A stretch of DNA of 7,408 nucleotides from a bacterium. Its GTDB lineage: Bacteria; T1Sed10-126. The DNA lies in NCBI GenBank assembly GCA_003554945.1, contig PWHN01000027.1:1-7408 (forward strand), read 5' to 3'. This document shows, piece after piece, positions 731 to 7,408 of the stretch (positions are counted from its first letter, which is position 1; each line of letters opens with the position of its first letter). The notes under the pieces are model-generated. The model did no database searches. It was given only the letters and a program-made list of their open reading frames with translations, and had not been told where the DNA came from. A program made the translations under genes and the position numbers.

Positions 731-1108
731 ATGGAAAAAGAGATTCTGGAAGAAGATTGCTCTCCTAATCGCCCGTTCAAGCGAGAAGCGGTGGTTGAGA
801 GAGAGGTAGACCATCAGCGCCAGCCGGTTCATCCAGGGAAAATTTTGGAAGACTACATGGAAGCTGACGGCTGGAATCAAACCGATCTTGCGGAGACAAT
901 CGGGGTTTCAAGGGATAGAATCAATAAAATTGTCAATGGCAAACGCGGCATTTCACACGAAACTGCGATCAGACTTTCCATTGTTTTTAAAAACACTCAA
1001 CCTGATTTTTGGCTTGCGCTTGATAATGACCGCCGTCTCTGGGAGGAACGCCAGAAAAACGCCGATGAATTTAAAAAAATACAGGAGCGAGTAAAAAAAG
1101 CAAGCTAA
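731..1108 (+). CDS. higA: HigA-family antitoxin with XRE helix-turn-helix
   Basis: The protein is 125 residues. I chose ATG 731 because AGGTG lies about 6 nt upstream and the start falls 10 nt after the toxin stop; the frame stays open further upstream, but only inside higB. Residues 34-40 (HPGKILE) begin the standard HigA domain. The helix-turn-helix is at about 48-70 (WNQTDLAETIGVSRDRINKI), followed by RGISHETAIRLS and PDFWLALDND (91-100), all typical of HigA. It should bind and neutralise HigB and repress the operon promoter at 393-421. The oddity is an extra charged N-terminal stretch of about 30 residues before HPG, where most HigA proteins have only a few. It has a cysteine (C10) and looks disordered. 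The protein ends in a lysine-rich helix. Confidence 0.88.
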   Translation: MEKEILEEDCSPNRPFKREAVVEREVDHQRQPVHPGKILEDYMEADGWNQTDLAETIGVSRDRINKIVNGKRGISHETAIRLSIVFKNTQPDFWLALDNDRRLWEERQKNADEFKKIQERVKKAS

Positions 1109-1124
1109 AATCCGATCAGTTTTC

Positions 1125-1164
1125 AACTAACCAACTAGCTAACCAGTTAACTAGCCAACTAACC
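1125..1164 (+). repeat. Five tandem degenerate 8-bp units (AACTARCC)
   Basis: The stretch divides cleanly into AACTAACC, AACTAGCT, AACCAGTT, AACTAGCC and AACTAACC, each starting with AAC. It begins 16 nt after the higA stop. A related TTAACTAACT occurs at 1463-1472 at the far side of the hairpin cluster, so similar sequence brackets the repeat block. The function is unknown; slippage-derived repeat or a border of the block are both possible. Confidence 0.6.
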
Positions 1165-1261
1165 CCTGGGAATGCATCTTGACGTTGACTTTGATGTTAA
1201 GTATTTACTTTCTCACTTTCACACTTTTACACTACCTACCGGGAATCCATAGCATTAACGA

Positions 1262-1306
1262 CGTCATTGTCTGGCTTGACCAGACAATCCATCTTGATTT
1301 TGATTC
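1262..1306 (+). repeat. Palindromic repeat unit 1 (9-bp stem, CTTGA loop)
   Basis: CGTC, then stem arm ATTGTCTGG (1266-1274), loop CTTGA (1275-1279) and the perfectly complementary arm CCAGACAAT (1280-1288). CCATCTTGATTTTGATTC follows. All nine pairs are Watson-Crick. Flanks, loop and tail match unit 2, and the inner stem differs. Confidence 0.75.
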
Positions 1307-1316
1307 ACCAGATAGC

Positions 1317-1362
1317 CGTCATTATCGAACTTGATTCGATAATCCATTTTGACCTTGATTTC
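1317..1362 (+). repeat. Palindromic repeat unit 2 (9-bp stem, CTTGA loop)
   Basis: CGTC, then arm ATTATCGAA (1321-1329), loop CTTGA (1330-1334) and arm TTCGATAAT (1335-1343), again nine perfect pairs. CCATTTTGACCTTGATTTC follows. The unit starts 55 bp after unit 1 and keeps the same geometry. Four of the six inner stem pairs differ between the units, and each change is matched on the opposite arm. Confidence 0.75.
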
Positions 1363-1533
1363 GGGCTTTTATTTTCCCACCCGGCTCTTTCACACTTTCC
1401 CACTCAAACGCCATCGACTGCTGACGATCAGTTGCAACCACCGAGGCAAATGGATTCCCATTGATTAACTAACTCAAATTCTGTTAAACTACAGCTTGCT
1501 AATCAAGAATACTTCGATTCGTCCGGGGACAAA

Positions 1534-1614
1534 ATGAACACAAAAATTAATGATCTAGCCAAAAAATATCGCACTATGGCCTTCGGAACTAACCGAAGCC
1601 CGCTTACGGACTGA
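1534..1614 (+). CDS. Possible 26-residue peptide or gene remnant
   Basis: ATG 1534 follows GGGGA (1525-1529) by 4 nt and opens a 26-codon frame ending at TGA 1612-1614. It starts MNTKINDLAKKYR and ends in NRSPLTD. The start is helical and protein-like. The last third is read through a small hairpin (CTTCGG 1581-1586 with CCGAAG 1593-1598). I do not recognise a family. It may be a real small protein, the start of a decayed gene, or chance. It is separated from the next gene by about 120 bp. Confidence 0.25.
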   Translation: MNTKINDLAKKYRTMAFGTNRSPLTD

Positions 1615-1677
1615 TTTATCAACATTTAAACAACGTTTGTTTTTTCAGAAACAGAAAAATTTGAGGATGGAAGTATT

Positions 1678-1706
1678 TTGTTCCCCTGAAAAGAGTGAAT
1701 TATAAA
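1678..1706 (+). promoter_or_regulatory. Candidate promoter of the DUF262 fusion gene
   Basis: TTGTTC (1678-1683), a 17-nt spacer and TATAAA (1701-1706) give a plausible sigma-70 promoter with a weak -35 and a 5/6 -10 box. The expected transcript start, near 1713, leaves a leader of about 23 nt that carries the ribosome binding site GGAGGG at 1725-1730, 5 nt before the ATG. This supports the gene being transcribed on its own. Confidence 0.35.
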
Positions 1707-1735
1707 CTAAATCTCTTAACCTGTGGAGGGTTAAA

Positions 1736-3838
1736 ATGGAAATTGGCAAGTTATTAGATCGTGTTGAATCGAATGCTATTGTTTTACCAGAGTTTCAAAG
1801 AGAATTTGTTTGGAAAAAATCTCAGGCCAAGGAATTGATGAATTCTCTTTTTAAAGGCTATCCAATAGGGGGATTACTTGCCTGGGAAACCGAAGACCCT
1901 CCCGAGATAAAAAATGATGCTGTTGATAGGGAAAAACAAGCTTTATTTGAAATATTGCTTGATGGCCAGCAACGGCTCACAGTACTTTATATGCTGATAA
2001 AAAATGATATACCACCTTATTATGAGAAAGCGGACATCGGTAATGATCCAAGGAAACTTTATTTTAATGTTGATACCAGTGAATTTCATTTCGAAAATAG
2101 GCGTGTTAAAGAAGGTAATACGTGGGTAAAGGTAGTAGATTGTTTTTCGGAAAAAGTGGACGGTATTTCAATTGCTCAGGAGCAAGTGGGGGATCAACCA
2201 GAAGAAGTCATAGAAATTTCTAAGAAATATAGTAATCGCATAGGCACTCTAAGAAGTATTAAAAATAGAAATATACCGGTGGAAACCTTACCTAAATCCG
2301 CCAATATTCATCAGGCGATAGAACTTTTTGACAAAATAAATTCTCAGGGTACCCATCTTAGTGATGCAGAGCTTGCATTGGCCCATATGAGTGCTCATTG
2401 GCCGCACATTCGTCGTCATATGAAACGTAAGCAAACGGAACTCGCAGAAAAGGGGTTTGATTTTAATCTTAATTTTTATGTCAAGTGTATGATTGGTTCA
2501 TTGACGGAAACTATGTCTTACGAGCAAGTTTACAATATCCCGAAGGATAAATTGAAAAAGCAATGGCAAAAACTGGCTGATCGAGAAAAAGGGATTTTTG
2601 ATTACCTTTTTAACGTCTTGAAAAATGAGGCCCATATTCCCAGTTCGGATTATATTAACACCCGGGATGCTTTGATTCCTCTGATTGTTTATCTCAATAA
2701 AAAAGGCAGAAGAATATCAAAAGAAGAAAAAACTGAATTTATTCGGTGGATGTATGCGGCTATGATGTGGTCCCGATACAGTGGTTCTGCAGACTCACGA
2801 GTCGAACATGACCTTTCGCTCCTGGATTCAACCTCACCGACTAAATCTTTGATACAAACCATTCGGGACGACCGAGGACGAATAGAAGTTCAACCTTCGG
2901 ATCTGGCCGAACGCGGGAAGCGTGTGCGCCGTTTTTATAACATGGTTCGAATAGTTACTCGAGCCTCCAACCCTGTTGATTGGATCACCGGTGCGCCTTT
3001 GAAAGGGTCTTATAAATTGCAATCCCATCATATATTTCCAAAAAGTAAGCTATACAAAGAGTATGATTCTGGAGTGGCTACGAACAGAAAATTAGTTAAT
3101 GAAATTGCTAACAGAGCTTTCATAACTCCGGAAAGCAACCAACGTTTTAGTGATACCTTGCCAGGCGAATATTTACCCAGGGTGTTAGAAAAACATCCGG
3201 AGGCTCTTTCTTCGCAATATATTCCAGAAAATAAGGAATTATGGAAAATAGAAAATTATGAGGAATTTCTAGCCAAACGTCGGGATATGCTCGCTCATGC
3301 GATCAATGATTATATGAAGGATCTGGTTTTTGGCACTCTTGAAGAACCGACGGAAACCGTGGATAATATGATTGAAAAAGGAGAGAATCCACGAATAGAA
3401 TTCAAAGAAACTCTTTTATATGATGTCTTTCAAAATAAGGCCAATAAGAATTTAAAAATGGAAGTAGCTAAAGAAATTTGTGCTATGGCTAATACTGAGG
3501 GAGGGGTGGTTATAATTGGAGTTGAGGATGCAAGTAAGGAAGTGAAGGGACTTGAAAGAGATTATAGGATTTTGCGTAATGGACAGGATGAATTTGAACT
3601 TCAATTAAGACAAGAAATTGCCAATCGGATCAATGAACTTATGTCTAATACTTATACTACGGTTGATTTTAAAGAAGTAAACGGTAAAGAGGTTTGTGTT
3701 GTTTACGTTGAAGAGAGTCCAAATCCAGTTTACTTCCGGGAAAATGGTGAACAGAAATTTTATGTTCGGGACGGCACATCGTCCAAACCATTAAGCATCT
3801 CTGAAGCAAACGACTATATCAAAATTAATTTTTCTTAA
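1736..3838 (+). CDS. DUF262 (GmrSD/SspE-like)–HNH nuclease–AlbA_2 (Schlafen-like) fusion
   Basis: The protein is 700 residues; ATG 1736 has a strong GGAGGG site. N-terminal DUF262: LPEFQREFVW (17-26), GYPIGGLLAWE (41-51), the hallmark DGQQR (76-80) followed by LTVLY, and FDKINSQGTHLSDAE (198-212). In SspE and GmrSD relatives this domain is a nucleotide-hydrolysing module that licenses cutting of modified DNA. The middle carries an HNH-type nuclease core: HHIFPKSKL (431-439), NRKLVNEIANRAFIT (450-464) and N468, with PGEYL (476-480). The C-terminus (about 548-700) is AlbA_2: IEFKET (554-559), KEICAMANTEGGVVIIGVED (579-598) and FYVRDGTSSKPLS (675-687). Known DUF262-HNH proteins normally stop after the nuclease, so the appended nucleic-acid-binding domain is the notable point. 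No ssp, dnd or other modification gene is visible. Probably a stand-alone restriction-type defence effector; the role is inferred. Confidence 0.85.
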   Translation: MEIGKLLDRVESNAIVLPEFQREFVWKKSQAKELMNSLFKGYPIGGLLAWETEDPPEIKNDAVDREKQALFEILLDGQQRLTVLYMLIKNDIPPYYEKADIGNDPRKLYFNVDTSEFHFENRRVKEGNTWVKVVDCFSEKVDGISIAQEQVGDQPEEVIEISKKYSNRIGTLRSIKNRNIPVETLPKSANIHQAIELFDKINSQGTHLSDAELALAHMSAHWPHIRRHMKRKQTELAEKGFDFNLNFYVKCMIGSLTETMSYEQVYNIPKDKLKKQWQKLADREKGIFDYLFNVLKNEAHIPSSDYINTRDALIPLIVYLNKKGRRISKEEKTEFIRWMYAAMMWSRYSGSADSRVEHDLSLLDSTSPTKSLIQTIRDDRGRIEVQPSDLAERGKRVRRFYNMVRIVTRASNPVDWITGAPLKGSYKLQSHHIFPKSKLYKEYDSGVATNRKLVNEIANRAFITPESNQRFSDTLPGEYLPRVLEKHPEALSSQYIPENKELWKIENYEEFLAKRRDMLAHAINDYMKDLVFGTLEEPTETVDNMIEKGENPRIEFKETLLYDVFQNKANKNLKMEVAKEICAMANTEGGVVIIGVEDASKEVKGLERDYRILRNGQDEFELQLRQEIANRINELMSNTYTTVDFKEVNGKEVCVVYVEESPNPVYFRENGEQKFYVRDGTSSKPLSISEANDYIKINFS

Positions 3839-3902: not shown

Positions 3903-3979
3903 AAACGTATCGTACGAGGACTTTAGGAAGTAATTAGGCAAGAAGCTCTAGAACTTAAAATTCTTGAAGCCTGGCTAAA
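3903..3979 (+). repeat. Direct repeat, copy A (structured, about 77 bp)
   Basis: Positions 3903-3936 (34 bp, starting AAACGTATCG and containing the palindrome TCGTACGA) are identical to 6649-6682. Weaker similarity continues to GGCTAAA. The element can fold: TTTAG (3922-3926) with CTAAA (3975-3979), AGGC (3936-3939) with GCCT (3969-3972), and AAGAA (3940-3944) with TTCTT (3961-3965). In one frame the shared part encodes NVSYEDFRK and a stop (TAA 3931-3933), so it could also be a copied gene end. It lies 65 bp after the fusion gene and may act as its 3' end. Confidence 0.7.
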
Positions 3980-4019
3980 ATTACAAGTTTTATTTCATTT
4001 GAAGCAGTCAGGTATATCC

Positions 4020-4151
4020 TCAGTCATTTTCTTCGCTACCGTTTCCTGAAGTGTTACCGGACTTCACTTTTATCCAGGTGACAACGATCCAGGCAATCGA
4101 AAGCACCAATACAGCACCTACAAAAGCTTCCGGCCAGTTTAGTGGTTCCAT
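4020..4151 (-). CDS. Small single-span membrane protein, 43 residues (unidentified)
   Basis: On the minus strand, ATG at 4151-4149 is preceded by AAAGGGGGG (GGGGGG at 4164-4159) at 7 nt, an excellent ribosome binding site. A TACAAT -10-like box lies at 4177-4172. The frame ends at TGA 4022-4020. The product starts MEPLNWPEAF, has one hydrophobic helix at about residues 9-27 (AFVGAVLVLSIAWIVVTW), then a short basic patch (IKVKS) and a hydrophilic tail of G, S, N and acidic residues. The basic patch after the helix suggests the N-terminus faces out. I do not recognise the family. Candidates include a small membrane effector or toxin, a regulator of a membrane complex, or a phage-derived protein. 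It is the only gene I support on the minus strand, so it is transcribed independently of its neighbours. Confidence 0.6.
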   Translation of the reverse strand: MEPLNWPEAFVGAVLVLSIAWIVVTWIKVKSGNTSGNGSEEND

Positions 4152-4224
4152 ATCATTTCCCCCCTTTGTTGATTGTATTAGTAAGAATAATTGAACTTCC
4201 GTAATCTAGAATTTTTAACTCCGT

Positions 4225-4247
4225 GAAATAGTTTATCAAACTATTTC
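4225..4247. other. Perfect 10-bp stem hairpin
   Basis: GAAATAGTTT (4225-4234), loop ATC and AAACTATTTC (4238-4247) pair perfectly. It lies between the divergent starts of the minus-strand membrane protein and the plus-strand small ORF. No T-run follows on either strand, so it is not a classic terminator. An operator serving one or both neighbours is possible. Confidence 0.5.
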
Positions 4248-4258
4248 TCGCCAGCAGA

Positions 4259-4278
4259 TTTGGGGGCTTGTCCCCAAA
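4259..4278. other. GC-rich 7-bp stem hairpin
   Basis: TTTGGGG (4259-4265), loop GCTTGT and CCCCAAA (4272-4278). The loop and right arm contain GTCCCCAAAAG, also present at 359-369, where a shorter TTTGG-T-CCCCAAA version is seen. It may be a small dispersed palindromic repeat or a weak transcription stop. Confidence 0.4.
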
Positions 4279-4392
4279 AGTTGTACCAGTTAGGCTTGTG
4301 TTTTTGTAACCTCAACAGTTTTTTCTACGCTGGATTTATATTTGGTTTCCTGTAATATATTTATACAGTTCAAAGGGAAATTATTTGAAGGG

Positions 4393-4575
4393 GTGGTTGT
4401 CATCAGTAGAGAGGAAAAAGAATTTCTGGAGCATATTGCTCGCCGTCTGGACCTGCTTGCCGAGTATATTTCTGCCTGCCATTCGGAGTCCGGGGTAACT
4501 CCTGAAGAAAAAGAAGAAATCAAGGAGAAGGCACTGGTCTCCTGGCCGGAGCGGAAGGCAAATGACGGAAAATAG
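4393..4575 (+). CDS. Small helical protein of about 60 residues (unidentified)
   Basis: The frame ends at TAG 4573-4575 and overlaps the exonuclease ATG by 14 nt, suggesting translational coupling. The protein-like part starts ISREEKEFLEHIARRLDLL and continues through a second charged helix (TPEEKEEIKEKAL). It is acidic, amphipathic, and probably a two-helix protein. The start is unclear. GTG 4393 is in frame, but GAAGGGG (4387-4393) abuts it; that Shine-Dalgarno-like stretch would suit a start near 4402, where the codon is ATC. A TTG at 4342 is also in frame but has no ribosome binding site and gives an unconvincing N-terminus. I do not recognise the family. Its overlap suggests a partner, adaptor or regulator of the exonuclease. 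Confidence 0.55.
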   Translation: MVVISREEKEFLEHIARRLDLLAEYISACHSESGVTPEEKEEIKEKALVSWPERKANDGK

Positions 4576-5188
4576 AGATTTTAGCTGCCTGCCTTATGGA
4601 CAGGCGAAAGACTGGCGAATAGCTTTTGTTGATGTGGAGACAACTGGACTTATTCCGGGGCATCACGAAATGGTAGATATAGGTGTCGTAATCTGTGATC
4701 TAAGTGGAGAAGAAATAGCCTGTTTCTTTCAGCGCATAATGCCCCGATATCCCGGGAGGGCCAGCGATGAAGCTCTGAGCTGCAATGGATTTACGGTTGA
4801 GCGCTGGCGAGAAAAGGGAGCTGTTCCCGGGGAAAAAGCGGTTGAGGAAGTAATTGAGTTTTACAATTCAATTGTTCCTGAAGTACATATTCTGATGAGC
4901 GCTTACAATGCCACTTTTGATCACGCCTTCCTTGATCACCTGTTTCGTCAGGTGGGGGAGAAAGCTCGCCAGCTTCATAATTACGTGCTTGATCTGCCGG
5001 CGGTCGCCTGGGGCGCCGGCTATCACAATCTGCACCTCAGCCAAATAGTTGAGCGTCTTGGGGTTGAAGACGAGCCGCGGGTAAGTAACGGGGCAAAAGC
5101 CTGGGAACATACGGGTCTTACTGGGGCGAAGCTGAATAAACGAATTTATCAGAAACTAAAAGCTCAGGAAGGGATTGGAGGCGAGTAA
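4562..5188 (+). CDS. DnaQ-like 3'-5' exonuclease domain protein, ExoIII Asp missing
   Basis: The protein is 208 residues, starting at ATG 4562 inside the end of the upstream small ORF, with GGAGCGGAAGG just upstream. The DEDDh exonuclease motifs are visible: ExoI VDVETTG (23-29, metal ligands D24 and E26), ExoII AYNATFDHAFLD (114-125, D120) and an ExoIII-like WEHTGLTGA (181-189). In active DEDDh enzymes ExoIII reads H-x4-D; here H183 is kept but the aspartate position is G188, codon GGG, two base changes from any Asp codon. The fold is probably retained, but metal binding may be weakened, or a different residue may serve. It is longer than a minimal domain, with about 18 extra residues before the first strand and a lysine-rich C-terminus. 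It is not a full polymerase subunit, and repair, phage-derived or defence roles are all possible. Confidence 0.75.
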   Translation: MTENRDFSCLPYGQAKDWRIAFVDVETTGLIPGHHEMVDIGVVICDLSGEEIACFFQRIMPRYPGRASDEALSCNGFTVERWREKGAVPGEKAVEEVIEFYNSIVPEVHILMSAYNATFDHAFLDHLFRQVGEKARQLHNYVLDLPAVAWGAGYHNLHLSQIVERLGVEDEPRVSNGAKAWEHTGLTGAKLNKRIYQKLKAQEGIGGE

Positions 5189-5251
5189 AAATGGTGCGGA
5201 TGCTTAAGTTGAATCAAAATGACCAAAATTGAAAAGAAACAATAGTTCTAA

Positions 5252-5417
5252 CGGGGTACACCCCGGATGAAGGTAAGCCCTATAATTTCGAGTTAAAACT
5301 TAATTATACCCTTTTCAAAAGGTCATTCCAGCGGAAGCAGGGAACTTCTGAATGGCCTTGAATACGGCATTTGCTGGGCAATGAGAAGGGGTTAAGGTAT
5401 TGCCAAAATTATTTTGG
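5252..5417 (+). ncRNA. Candidate structured leader RNA (four to five hairpins)
   Basis: Successive inverted repeats fill this gene-free stretch. CGGGG (5252-5256) pairs with CCCCG (5261-5265). TATAATT (5281-5287) pairs with AATTATA (5302-5308), with an inner AGT/ACT stem. AAGGTCATTC (5319-5328) pairs with GAATGGCCTT (5350-5359) including one G-T pair, continuing as GGAAG (5333-5337) with CTTCT (5345-5349) across a 4-nt bulge. GGCAAT (5377-5382) pairs with ATTGCC (5399-5404). CCAAAA (5403-5408) pairs with TTTTGG (5412-5417), competing with the previous stem and covering the edge of the next ribosome binding site. I could not match it to a known riboswitch class. A tiny 13-codon frame with an SD (5191-5232) precedes it. 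Confidence 0.4.
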
Positions 5418-5428
5418 GAGGTATTTTA

Positions 5429-5467
5429 ATGACTACGGGTTCGGAAGTTAAATATAGCGATTTGTAG
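5429..5467 (+). CDS. 12-residue leader peptide or interrupted gene start
   Basis: TTGGGAGG (5414-5421) lies 7 nt before ATG 5429, one of the best ribosome binding sites in the window, yet the frame (MTTGSEVKYSDL) ends at TAG 5465-5467. The same frame is open again after this amber codon and runs directly into the 357-residue gene at 5501. It may be a leader peptide, or the original start of the larger gene cut off by a nonsense change. Its SD partly lies within the last hairpin of the candidate leader RNA. Confidence 0.35.
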   Translation: MTTGSEVKYSDL

Positions 5468-5500
5468 GGGATTGAGTTCTATTCTTGGGAGGGAGACAGT

Positions 5501-6574
5501 ATGGACAGATTTACGCTTTTAAAACAATATGGTCAGCAGAATGAGGGAATTCTGACGTATCCGATTTATCTGTCAGAGCCTATCAACGATCAATTACAAC
5601 CCATTACCGACGATGAGGAAGCAGTATTTACAAATCTGCAACAGGTAGGACGGGGAGATAGTGCTCTATTGATAGAGACCGATGTTGATGATGAGCTTCC
5701 CAAGGACGAATTGGTTGCTCTTGACTCTATTCCTGAGCAATTTGTTCAGTTGATCCGGGAGAATCCCGTTCAGGTGATCTATCCGTGTGCGAACGGTGTT
5801 CCAGGGTTCTATCTTTTTGGAGAAATACTGGGGCGTCAAGCTCTGATGAAAAAATATTGGAATCCCCCCGAACTGCGATCCGTTTTACTTACCGATACGA
5901 ATCTTAAGAGTTGTTACGAAGAGAGGCAATCCGATCATGGGACACGGTATATTTTTGAGAAGTTTGGGATTGAGGTGTGCTACCCGGACTCAGATATGAA
6001 AGCGGGTGATTTTTCGTTACAAAAGCTCCCTTCAATCTCCACTGAAATAGAGAAAGATGATATTATCGGGAAAGAGATTGACGTTGAGAAAGAACGGGGG
6101 TTCCCGGGAAAAGATGCATCCGGAGAGGATCGAGTGTTAAATTGGTATCACAAGAATAACTTAGAGACCGGCCCACTTTTTCGGGAGTTTAGGGTTACAA
6201 ATGGTATTGAAAACTCAGCGCGCCAGCGAGCCTTGGATGGACTTCTTATATGTAACGGCGAAGAAAATCAAGTATATAAACCAACACTCCAGAATGGTGG
6301 TTATGAATATGCCAAACATTTAATCGATCAGAACTATCCGCTCATAGCCATTGAAGTGCACAAGTGGGGATGGGAGGGATTCGGCCAAGTGGTAGGGAAG
6401 GCGACTCTATTGGAGGATTTCTGGGATGCTCCTATTGTTCGCAAAGTCCTTGTTGTTAAAAATAACCAGGGAAGGAACTTTGAACGATTGGATCGTGAAA
6501 ATCCCCAGGTTGACCTTGAATCCATAATGGCAGACTACGGCGTAGAAATTGTCATCGCCCCGGAGGATATCTAA
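5501..6574 (+). CDS. Unrecognised protein with duplicated restriction-endonuclease-like domain
   Basis: The protein is 357 residues; ATG 5501 follows GGGAGGGAG (5489-5497). I cannot name the family. Two segments, about 88-163 and 279-354, align with each other: GEILGRQALMKKYW (107-120) with GQVVGKATLLEDFW (295-308), then PELRSVLL with PIVRKVLV, and GIEVCYPDSD with GVEIVIAPED. The second half looks like a PD-(D/E)XK-type nuclease core: LFREFRV with E229, RALDGLLI with D246, then IAIEVHK with E285 and K288, and the GFGQ motif (293-296). In the first half the aspartate may be kept (RGDSALLIE, D53), but the E and K positions appear as Y94 and A97. A charged linker (about 165-215) joins the halves. 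A nuclease with one degenerate and one active-looking copy is my inference. It stands alone, flanked by a structured leader and a direct repeat. Confidence 0.6.
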   Translation: MDRFTLLKQYGQQNEGILTYPIYLSEPINDQLQPITDDEEAVFTNLQQVGRGDSALLIETDVDDELPKDELVALDSIPEQFVQLIRENPVQVIYPCANGVPGFYLFGEILGRQALMKKYWNPPELRSVLLTDTNLKSCYEERQSDHGTRYIFEKFGIEVCYPDSDMKAGDFSLQKLPSISTEIEKDDIIGKEIDVEKERGFPGKDASGEDRVLNWYHKNNLETGPLFREFRVTNGIENSARQRALDGLLICNGEENQVYKPTLQNGGYEYAKHLIDQNYPLIAIEVHKWGWEGFGQVVGKATLLEDFWDAPIVRKVLVVKNNQGRNFERLDRENPQVDLESIMADYGVEIVIAPEDI

Positions 6575-6613
6575 AATATTCAGCATAAAAGCGGGTAGCT
6601 TCAGGCGAAATGA

Positions 6614-6679
6614 ATGAGTAAAAACGGAAAACGTAAAAAACGTATCAAAAACGTATCGTACGAGGACTTTAGGAAGTAA
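6614..6679 (+). CDS. Possible 21-residue basic peptide ending inside repeat B
   Basis: ATG 6614 opens a short frame rich in K and R (KRKKRIK) and ending NVSYEDFRK at TAA 6677-6679. The last nine codons and stop are the ones shared with copy A at 3904-3933. AGG at 6603-6605 is a weak ribosome binding site. It may be a real small basic peptide, the remnant of a gene whose end was copied, or a chance frame through a DNA-level repeat. Confidence 0.2.
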   Translation: MSKNGKRKKRIKNVSYEDFRK

Positions 6680-6724
6680 TTAAGCGCATACTCTCAAAAT
6701 TTAAAATCGAAATGCTTGGCTAAA
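6649..6724 (+). repeat. Direct repeat, copy B (structured, about 76 bp)
   Basis: Positions 6649-6682 equal 3903-3936 base for base. Later parts are diverged but keep the ends. TTTAG (6668-6672) pairs with CTAAA (6720-6724), and AAGC (6682-6685) pairs with GCTT (6714-6717). In copy A the inner pairing is AGGC with GCCT, so one G-C pair has become A-T on both arms. It lies 74 bp after the 357-residue gene, a position like that of copy A after the fusion gene. Confidence 0.7.
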
Positions 6725-6942
6725 GTAGAAACAAAACCGGTTCAGGGCTTGAGCAGGGGGGGAACGAGGTATCGTAATTTAAGTTTTTAGCTATTCCCCG
6801 GAACCCGGCAGCGTATATCCTCATTCCAGACCCGAAATCCTCCTCCATATATCCAAAGTCCCGTACATAAGACATACGATTAGTCTCGCCAAGCCGTCCA
6901 TAACGCCAAATCCCAAAAAATCCCTCCCCGAACTAACCCCAA
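6725..6942. other. Noncoding spacer with two weak minus-strand frames
   Basis: No gene is well supported here. On the minus strand, 6901-6821 reads as 26 residues (starting MDGLARLIVCLMYG). A second frame from ATG 6875 to TAG 6720 reads as 51 residues (starting MSYVRDFGYMEEDF) and stays open well upstream of that ATG. Neither has a proper ribosome binding site, and they overlap each other in different frames. The plus strand has a run of seven G at 6756-6762. It could be a decayed gene or a dispersed repeat. Confidence 0.35.
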
Positions 6943-6987
6943 ATCTGTACAATTCTACAATCGGTACTATTGTACAATTGTACAGAT
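6943..6987. promoter_or_regulatory. Operator-like palindrome with TGTACA boxes
   Basis: ATCTGTACAATT (6943-6954) and AATTGTACAGAT (6976-6987) form a perfect 12-bp inverted repeat with a 21-nt spacer. TGTACA occurs at 6946-6951, 6971-6976 and 6979-6984. The sequence TACAATTGTA (6973-6982) matches the TACANNTGTA operator known for the CopY/BlaI/MecI repressor family. It lies about 60 bp upstream of the candidate promoter at 7048 and 128 bp before the gene at 7116. No matching repressor gene is in the window. Confidence 0.5.
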
Positions 6988-7047
6988 GTGCAAATAGAAT
7001 ATGTAATAAACACAGGATGTTTCCTCCAGTTTAATTAGATGTTCTCT

Positions 7048-7075
7048 TTTACTTCAGGCGCAAATTTCGTATACT
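7048..7075 (+). promoter_or_regulatory. Candidate promoter of the terminal gene
   Basis: TTTACT (7048-7053), a 16-nt spacer and TATACT (7070-7075, 5/6 of the -10 consensus). The expected start near 7082 leaves a leader of about 34 nt to ATG 7116. Confidence 0.35.
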
Positions 7076-7115
7076 CTGCTTGAGCTATCCAATTTTACCG
7101 GGACGGTAGATAATT

Positions 7116-7408
7116 ATGGAAGCTCCCCGCCAGGTTGAGATGATTCTTAAGCATGGTGATGTATCTTCCACCTATAAGTTTGCTCTTCTGAAAAGTATTA
7201 TTGACTATGTCATTGCCCACCCGACGGAAGATGCACGCAACGGGTTTCACTATATCCCCGGGATTTACCTGGCGCGCCAATTTATGCGCTACTACTGGCC
7301 GCTGTGGAGACACGAAATCCCCCAGAATCCCACCGGCCGCACCGCGATGGCCTCCGTTTTTGAAGACTTCCAGGCGAAAGTAGACCACGATCTATACCGG
7401 GAACCGAA
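7116..7408 (+). CDS. N-terminus of a probable HNH endonuclease-family protein (partial)
   Basis: The frame is open from ATG 7116 to the window edge, giving 97 residues and no stop. The ribosome binding site is weak (GGGACGG near 7100-7106). Residues 17-29 (SSTYKFALLKSII) and a later stretch with IPGIYLARQFMRYYWPL and HEIPQNP resemble the N-terminal region of a group of HNH endonuclease proteins that share a YKFALL segment, a YYWPL segment and an IPQ motif. The nuclease domain itself would lie beyond the window and is not seen. A minus-strand frame covering the same DNA is a shadow. The TGTACA operator and the promoter at 7048-7075 lie upstream, pointing to separate control. Family assignment rests on remembered motif likeness. 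Confidence 0.55.
   Translation, partial: MEAPRQVEMILKHGDVSSTYKFALLKSIIDYVIAHPTEDARNGFHYIPGIYLARQFMRYYWPLWRHEIPQNPTGRTAMASVFEDFQAKVDHDLYREP

Follow-up and report, generated by a model that had tools for sequence, protein, structure and literature searches.

The window analysed in this work is an entire contig of 7,408 bases from a 2.2-Mb, 93.5%-complete assembly, whose rpoB is of bacterial type and scored over the cut-off, so that its source is a bacterium. It carries a gene, present as one copy in the genome (assembly search), whose product joins a DUF262-HNH protein to a Schlafen-like AlbA_2 domain. The original prediction suggested that this product could be a single-protein defence effector, in which nucleic-acid binding by the AlbA_2 domain sets the target of the nuclease or relieves its autoinhibition. 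The question raised by this locus is whether the AlbA_2 domain serves the DUF262-HNH part in this way or is an effector in its own right.

Three modules in one polypeptide

The fusion gene and its parts are arranged in the window as follows.

1725–1730, + strand: Shine-Dalgarno-like GGAGGG, 5 nt before the ATG of the fusion gene (sequence reading)
1736–3838, + strand: fusion gene DUF262-HNH-AlbA_2, an open reading frame of 700 aa with an ATG start
1742–2386, + strand: GmrSD_N/DUF262 (ParB/Srx-like NTPase) domain, residues 3–217 (Pfam PF03235; BrxU and ParB folds)
1961–1975, + strand: DGQQR motif, residues 76–80, near-invariant in 28 homologues
2387–2923, + strand: alpha-helical linker from DUF262 to HNH, residues 218–396 (AlphaFold secondary structure; spanned by the BrxU match)
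2924–3328, + strand: HNH (DUF1524/GmrD-like) nuclease region, residues 397–531 (invariant residues; BrxU/SspE/DndI and Cas9-HNH folds)
3026–3040, + strand: HHIFP motif, residues 431–435, equivalent to DHIYP of BrxU (sequence and alignment)
3329–3349, + strand: short flexible linker from HNH to AlbA_2, residues 532–538 (pLDDT below 50 at 533–538)
3383–3793, + strand: Schlafen AlbA_2 domain, residues 550–686, fold 536–700 (Pfam PF04326; SLFN, SAMD9 and DIP2311 folds)
3383–3406, + strand: putative catalytic motif ExxxxExK (E550, E555, K557), invariant, aligned to SLFN14 E206/E211/K213
3527–3529, + strand: third carboxylate D598 (SLFN13 D248, SLFN14 D249), invariant (alignments)

Two Pfam domains were matched far over the cut-off, GmrSD_N (PF03235) at residues 3–217 with E=2.4e-29 and SLFN_AlbA_2 (PF04326) at residues 550–686 with E=2.4e-21. 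The PADLOC model HEC-05, which is BrxU (PMC11411939), matched residues 2–527 with E=4.3e-45, and the SspE model registered marginally (E=0.0087). Thus the domain search proposed with the original prediction detected DUF262 and AlbA_2, but its DUF1524 model (PF07510, GmrSD_C) gave no Pfam match on the fusion protein. The AlphaFold model, built with 28 sequences, had a mean pLDDT of 88.1, the only stretch below 50 being the linker at 533–538, and it showed the expected AlbA_2 fold at the C-terminus (residues 536–700). The HMMs, the fold matches and the motif positions bore out the predicted three modules in one 700-residue chain, and every predicted motif was located in the sequence (DGQQR, HHIFP, N459, N468, IEFKE at 554–558, ANTEGG at 585–590 and GVED at 595–598). 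Promoter and terminator signals near the gene did not exceed chance, and Rfam had no matches in the 7,408-base window.

Residues 1–531 resemble BrxU

The best fold match of residues 1–531 was BrxU (Foldseek E 9e-15; VIA Z about 21, over 460–476 residues), followed by SspE and DndI (VIA Z 11–12). The superposition on BrxU had an rmsd of 15–16 because the domain arrangement differs. BrxU and GmrSD belong to the type IV restriction enzymes, which depend on modification and are characterised by NTP-stimulated cleavage of modified-cytosine DNA. The fusion protein shares with BrxU/GmrSD an N-terminal DUF262 with DGQQR, a helical linker, an HNH region with (D/H)HI(Y/F)P and the overall fold of residues 1–531. 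In contrast, its sequence identity to BrxU is just 18–19%, and it has the additional C-terminal Schlafen domain. The accessory domains given in a survey of GmrSD proteins are DUF4268, DUF4357 and DNA_binding_1, and AlbA_2 is absent from that list (PMC4619093).

The HNH region behind the helical linker was recognised by its residues and fold, PF07510 being silent. Across 28 sequences, some with the C-terminal domain and others lacking it, H432, P435, N459 and N468 did not vary. The HNH motif of BrxU is DHIYP (PMC8565348), and the Sinorhizobium homologue L063 has DHIFP, with Asp in place of H431. A relative from Nostoc (L064) gave a weak PF07510 match at the place equivalent to the HNH region. 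The HNH assignment was made because the H-N-N residues are invariant, residues 1–531 have the BrxU/SspE/DndI fold and PF07510 weakly matches L064. The best reading of residues 1–531 is a BrxU/GmrSD-type, type IV-like DNA restriction enzyme, which would be able to cleave DNA.

The AlbA_2 domain retains the Schlafen RNase motif

In VIA comparisons, residues 536–700 matched the AlbA_2 protein DIP2311 (Z 14.7, rmsd 3.0 over 140 residues), the DNA-binding/tRNase domain of SAMD9 (Z 12–13) and Schlafens 5, 11, 12, 13 and 14 (Z about 10). Together with the PF04326 match, these values (Z 10–15) place the domain in the AlbA_2 fold. The ExxxxExK motif and the third carboxylate of the Schlafen RNases are both present. 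In the family-profile alignment, E550, E555, K557 and D598 correspond to E206, E211, K213 and D249 of SLFN14. For SLFN13 (structure 5yd0), the chain index equals the residue number plus 13, counted from the construct length, so that D598 maps to D248 of SLFN13. The ExxxxExK residues of SLFN14 (E206, E211, K213) are needed for RNA cleavage, their mutants having lost or impaired RNase activity (PMC12215978), and mutation of the SLFN13 triad E205/E210/D248 abolishes or impairs RNase activity (PMC5862951). All four residues were kept in every full-architecture homologue examined. Human SLFN5 has the carboxylate triad, and nuclease activity was undetected in assays (PMC8789055), so the motif alone is no proof of catalysis.

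The fusion protein is thus like the Schlafen RNases SLFN11/13/14 and the SAMD9 tRNase domain in the AlbA_2 fold, the ExxxxExK motif and the third carboxylate. Unlike SLFN11/13/14, it is single-lobed, lacks the Schlafen N-lobe and is joined to a DNA restriction enzyme. The vertebrate SLFN enzymes have a two-lobed, pseudo-dimeric core with an N-lobe arginine. Only one AlbA_2 stretch was found per chain of the fusion protein, and we therefore classify it as Schlafen-like (AlbA_2) rather than as a vertebrate-type SLFN. Its one lobe would need dimerisation, and homodimerisation could supply the second lobe.

The AlbA_2 domain is under purifying selection, as is the remainder of the protein. Its dN/dS was 0.03–0.06 in haloarchaeal pairs and 0.10 in a Methanosarcinales/Methanophagales pair, like that of the other modules. 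Because the complete Schlafen RNase motif is kept in all homologues, an RNase effector is a likelier role for AlbA_2 than one limited to binding or autoinhibition. The complete AlbA_2 domain of the original prediction was upheld by HMM and fold, but a purely targeting or autoinhibitory role was not, the full RNase motif making a second effector likelier.

Distribution and origin of the fusion

Nineteen further homologues share the full architecture, and their hosts are haloarchaea, methanogens/ANME, Bipolaricaulota, KSB1, Aminicenantes, Chloroflexota and Alphaproteobacteria. The 27 listed key positions were kept in these 19 wherever the sequence covers them, with Asp for H431 in L063 as the sole exception. 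When 84,980 species genomes were scanned, 15 loci extended to the end of AlbA_2, coming from haloarchaea, other Euryarchaeota, Bipolaricaulota, Methanosarcinales, Methanophagales, Parvarchaeota, Aminicenantes, KSB1, Anaerolineaceae and two Alphaproteobacteria. Many more relatives end at about residue 530, without AlbA_2. Among 391 genomes sampled from the haloarchaeal class, five carried the full protein and two the form without AlbA_2; among 145 sampled around the source genome, only the source genome itself carried the full protein. The architecture survey suggested with the original prediction thus shows that the fusion recurs yet is uncommon. Plasmid copies occur in the halophilic archaeon DL31, on Haloquadratum walsbyi PL100 and on Sinorhizobium meliloti pSymA, and the GenBank/RefSeq names of these orthologues are only 'DUF262' or 'DUF2081'. 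In Salinibaculum (L008), the fusion copy at 6487–9728 is broken by a DDE transposase gene at 6913–7905. A phage origin was considered and rejected, as no complete homologue was found in the phage collection or the viral contigs.

A tree was built from the DUF262-HNH part alone; its root was not inferred, so the direction of change on it is a matter of interpretation. All 19 AlbA_2 bearers grouped in a single supported branch (100/97), which also holds two haloarchaeal relatives without AlbA_2, and two changes in the presence of AlbA_2 are required on the tree. This is most simply explained by one gain, i.e. a single fusion origin, one loss and horizontal spread. The bacterial fusion protein groups with archaeal ones and is 64–70% identical to them over the full length, which points to gene transfer between hypersaline archaea and bacteria.

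Close relatives of the AlbA_2 domain were also found with other partners. One (L075, 3356–5587, − strand) is C-terminal on a STAND-type ATPase; another (L076, 3410–4885, − strand) is a protein of 491 aa, 39% identical, with a 300-aa unknown N-terminus and a Cys-rich start. Both come from genomes that also carry the fusion. In Bauldia (L046), neighbouring genes encode an AlbA_2 protein and a distant DUF262 protein; the ATG of the AlbA_2 gene (L046:9836) lies 8 nt past the stop of the DUF262 gene, and the AlbA_2 protein has an intact ExxxxExK motif. These partners and the split in Bauldia fit a detachable effector domain better than an integral part of DNA recognition.

The DUF262-HNH chassis carries other tails as well. 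In the haloarchaeal relatives L028–L032 (L028 at 7917–9944; also L029, L030 and L032) it is followed by a different helical tail with RNxxxH, which gave weak matches to HEPN_Swt1 and to PADLOC PDC-M34B and was poorly modelled by AlphaFold (pLDDT about 30–45). This tail is possibly another RNase, which would mean swapping of C-terminal effectors on the DUF262-HNH chassis; we regard it as a lead. A third tail is shared by L064 (Nostoc, 5001–7319), L065 (Paracoccus, 4001–5959) and L059 (genome G112, 1102–3147, − strand), which form one supported clade. Two of these three proteins were scanned, with no Pfam or PADLOC match beyond the chassis.

Genomic neighbourhood

Four other features of the window surround the fusion gene.

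421–720: HigB-like toxin, paired with the next, upstream of the fusion gene
731–1108: HigA-family antitoxin
4562–5188: DEDDh/RNase T-like 3'-5' exonuclease gene, downstream of the fusion gene, resembling PADLOC CRISPR-associated DEDDh models
5501–6574: ORF of 357 aa, unmatched in Pfam, NCBIfam, PADLOC and the viral contigs

Immediately downstream of the fusion gene, a 37-bp direct repeat (3903–3939 and 6649–6685, 97% identical, found nowhere else in the 2.2-Mb assembly) brackets 2.7 kb with the DEDDh exonuclease gene and the 357-aa ORF, and this pair may delimit a segment that was inserted or duplicated. At 6940–6990, upstream of an ORF starting at 7116, there is an operator-like 22-nt inverted repeat, 91% complementary, with the core TTGTACAATTGTACA.

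The homologues adjoin Hma, type I and type IIG systems, so that a single-protein defence effector, as originally proposed, is likely. The neighbours are an HKD-helicase and an HmaB-like methylase at L002; HmaC, a DUF1156 methylase, a second DUF262 protein and a separate AlbA_2 protein at L061; type IIG and HKD-Snf2 genes at L004; type I HsdM/S/R at L007; HsdS/HsdR at L079; type I R-M and an abortive-infection gene at L063; and a type IIG gene at L009. Phage-type integrases neighbour L003 and L005. No defence neighbour was recognised at L011–L016, where the scan covered one gene, in L013. Published GmrSD-like genes are embedded in Hma clusters, which agrees with the Hma setting of the homologues.

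Discussion

We favour, with moderate confidence, a defence enzyme against invaders in which two nucleases are coupled, a DNA-cutting GmrSD part and a Schlafen RNase. Judging from its domains and motifs, the protein probably attacks RNA as well as invader DNA. The DUF262 domain would bind and hydrolyse nucleotide and would recognise foreign DNA, probably in modified form, which the HNH domain would then cut. The single-lobe Schlafen domain (about residues 536–700), held by a short flexible tether, would act as a metal-dependent RNase with E550, E555, K557 and D598 as its active site, most likely on tRNA or other structured RNA. It is expected to be inactive in the resting protein and to be freed once an invader is engaged by the GmrSD part or blocks that part; the freed RNase would then stop translation, adding a second layer of defence. 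On nucleotide binding, the interlocked dimer of BrxU separates into monomers (PMC8565348), and we speculate that a similar switch could govern the meeting of two single-lobe AlbA_2 domains. PrrC is described as a tRNase that a linked type I restriction enzyme keeps silent and that a phage anti-restriction factor activates (PMC2610378), and in BREX loci Schlafen RNases are described as serving in a backup role (PMC12839542). More tentatively, we suggest the full scheme, in which one polypeptide cuts modified invader DNA with its GmrSD part and unleashes its Schlafen domain on RNA (tRNA) when that part is engaged or blocked; a single gene of this kind, with one origin and later passage between archaea and bacteria, would provide two layers of immunity.

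The AlbA_2 domain might instead be non-cutting, binding RNA or DNA to set the GmrSD target or to keep the GmrSD nuclease inactive until a ligand arrives. Its relatives SAMD9 and SLFN5 bind DNA or tRNA, SLFN5 having the triad without detected nuclease activity (PMC8789055), both Foldseek and VIA matched the DNA-bound SAMD9 domain 7ksp, and the two relatives without AlbA_2 (L071, L072) keep the rest, so that the GmrSD part can work alone. We consider this role unlikely, though deserving of weight, because the strict invariance of E550/E555/K557/D598 across archaea and bacteria exceeds the needs of nucleic-acid binding; the triad of the SLFN5 family is, by contrast, poorly conserved between species (PMC8789055). 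It is quite improbable that the RNase is the sole effector and the GmrSD part an NTP-dependent sensor of invader DNA with a weak, nicking or regulatory HNH domain. The AlbA_2 of L075 on a STAND-type ATPase, the only recognised effector candidate there, would suit such an arrangement, but H432, N459 and N468 are invariant with and without AlbA_2, even where HNH is the only nuclease.

Two further readings concern the protein as a whole. A housekeeping or regulatory protein outside defence appears very improbable: its own neighbours (HigBA, the DEDDh exonuclease and the unknown ORF) are not diagnostic, but the patchy distribution, the plasmid copies, the restriction-system neighbours, the transposase-broken copy in L008 and the lack of AlbA_2 in two haloarchaea within the clade all argue for defence. 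Hardly credible is a phosphorothioate-sensing enzyme that partners a Dnd or Ssp modification system. SspE and DndI, which share the DUF262-HNH plan and lack AlbA_2, are among the fold matches (Z 11–12), but BrxU is far better (Z 21) and the SspE HMM gave E=0.0087. The original prediction had argued against such a role from the lack of modification genes beside the gene. That argument carries low weight, as the contig has just 7,408 bases and relatives adjoin DNA methylases, but its conclusion stood. A TIGR03183 search did not find dndC in the 93.5%-complete assembly, which is stronger evidence because the contig is just 7.4 kb, and no dnd/ssp genes occurred among the scanned neighbours of the homologues. 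A phosphorothioate-dependent role was therefore rejected.

The enzyme of two coupled nucleases that we favour has a known counterpart. EcoprrI and PrrC are separate proteins, a type I R-M system and a nuclease of unrelated type. They are alike in coupling DNA restriction to a tRNA nuclease as a second layer (PMC2610378). In contrast, the fusion is one chain, with a type IV-like enzyme and a Schlafen domain. No separate PrrC beside a type I R-M system was found here, the RNase-like domain lying in the same chain and being of the Schlafen type; on our analysis, the fusion protein is best read as a one-chain version of the EcoprrI/PrrC idea. Among prokaryotic Schlafen-linked systems, CbCash (PDB 9ylu) was matched by the fusion-family profile, and a Schlafen-histidine kinase-wHTH system near BREX likewise has an AlbA_2/Schlafen effector in a defence locus (PMC12839542), but the partner domain is different in these systems.

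Both halves of the protein are thus of known kinds. DUF262 and AlbA_2 were not found together in the literature searched, a 2025 preprint on bacterial Schlafens being outside its scope, and GmrSD and Schlafen proteins co-occur there only as separate BREX accessories (PMC12839542). Within that scope the architecture is without description. Since PADLOC labels the protein HEC-05 (BrxU) and database records name plasmid orthologues only 'DUF262' or 'DUF2081', its RNase-like half is hidden in present naming. The known coupling of EcoprrI and PrrC uses separate proteins, and a one-chain form that keeps all catalytic residues would offer a direct way to study how a suicide RNase is controlled by a restriction enzyme. 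Such a form would also link DNA restriction to the Schlafens of archaea and bacteria, which are related to the interferon-induced antiviral Schlafens.
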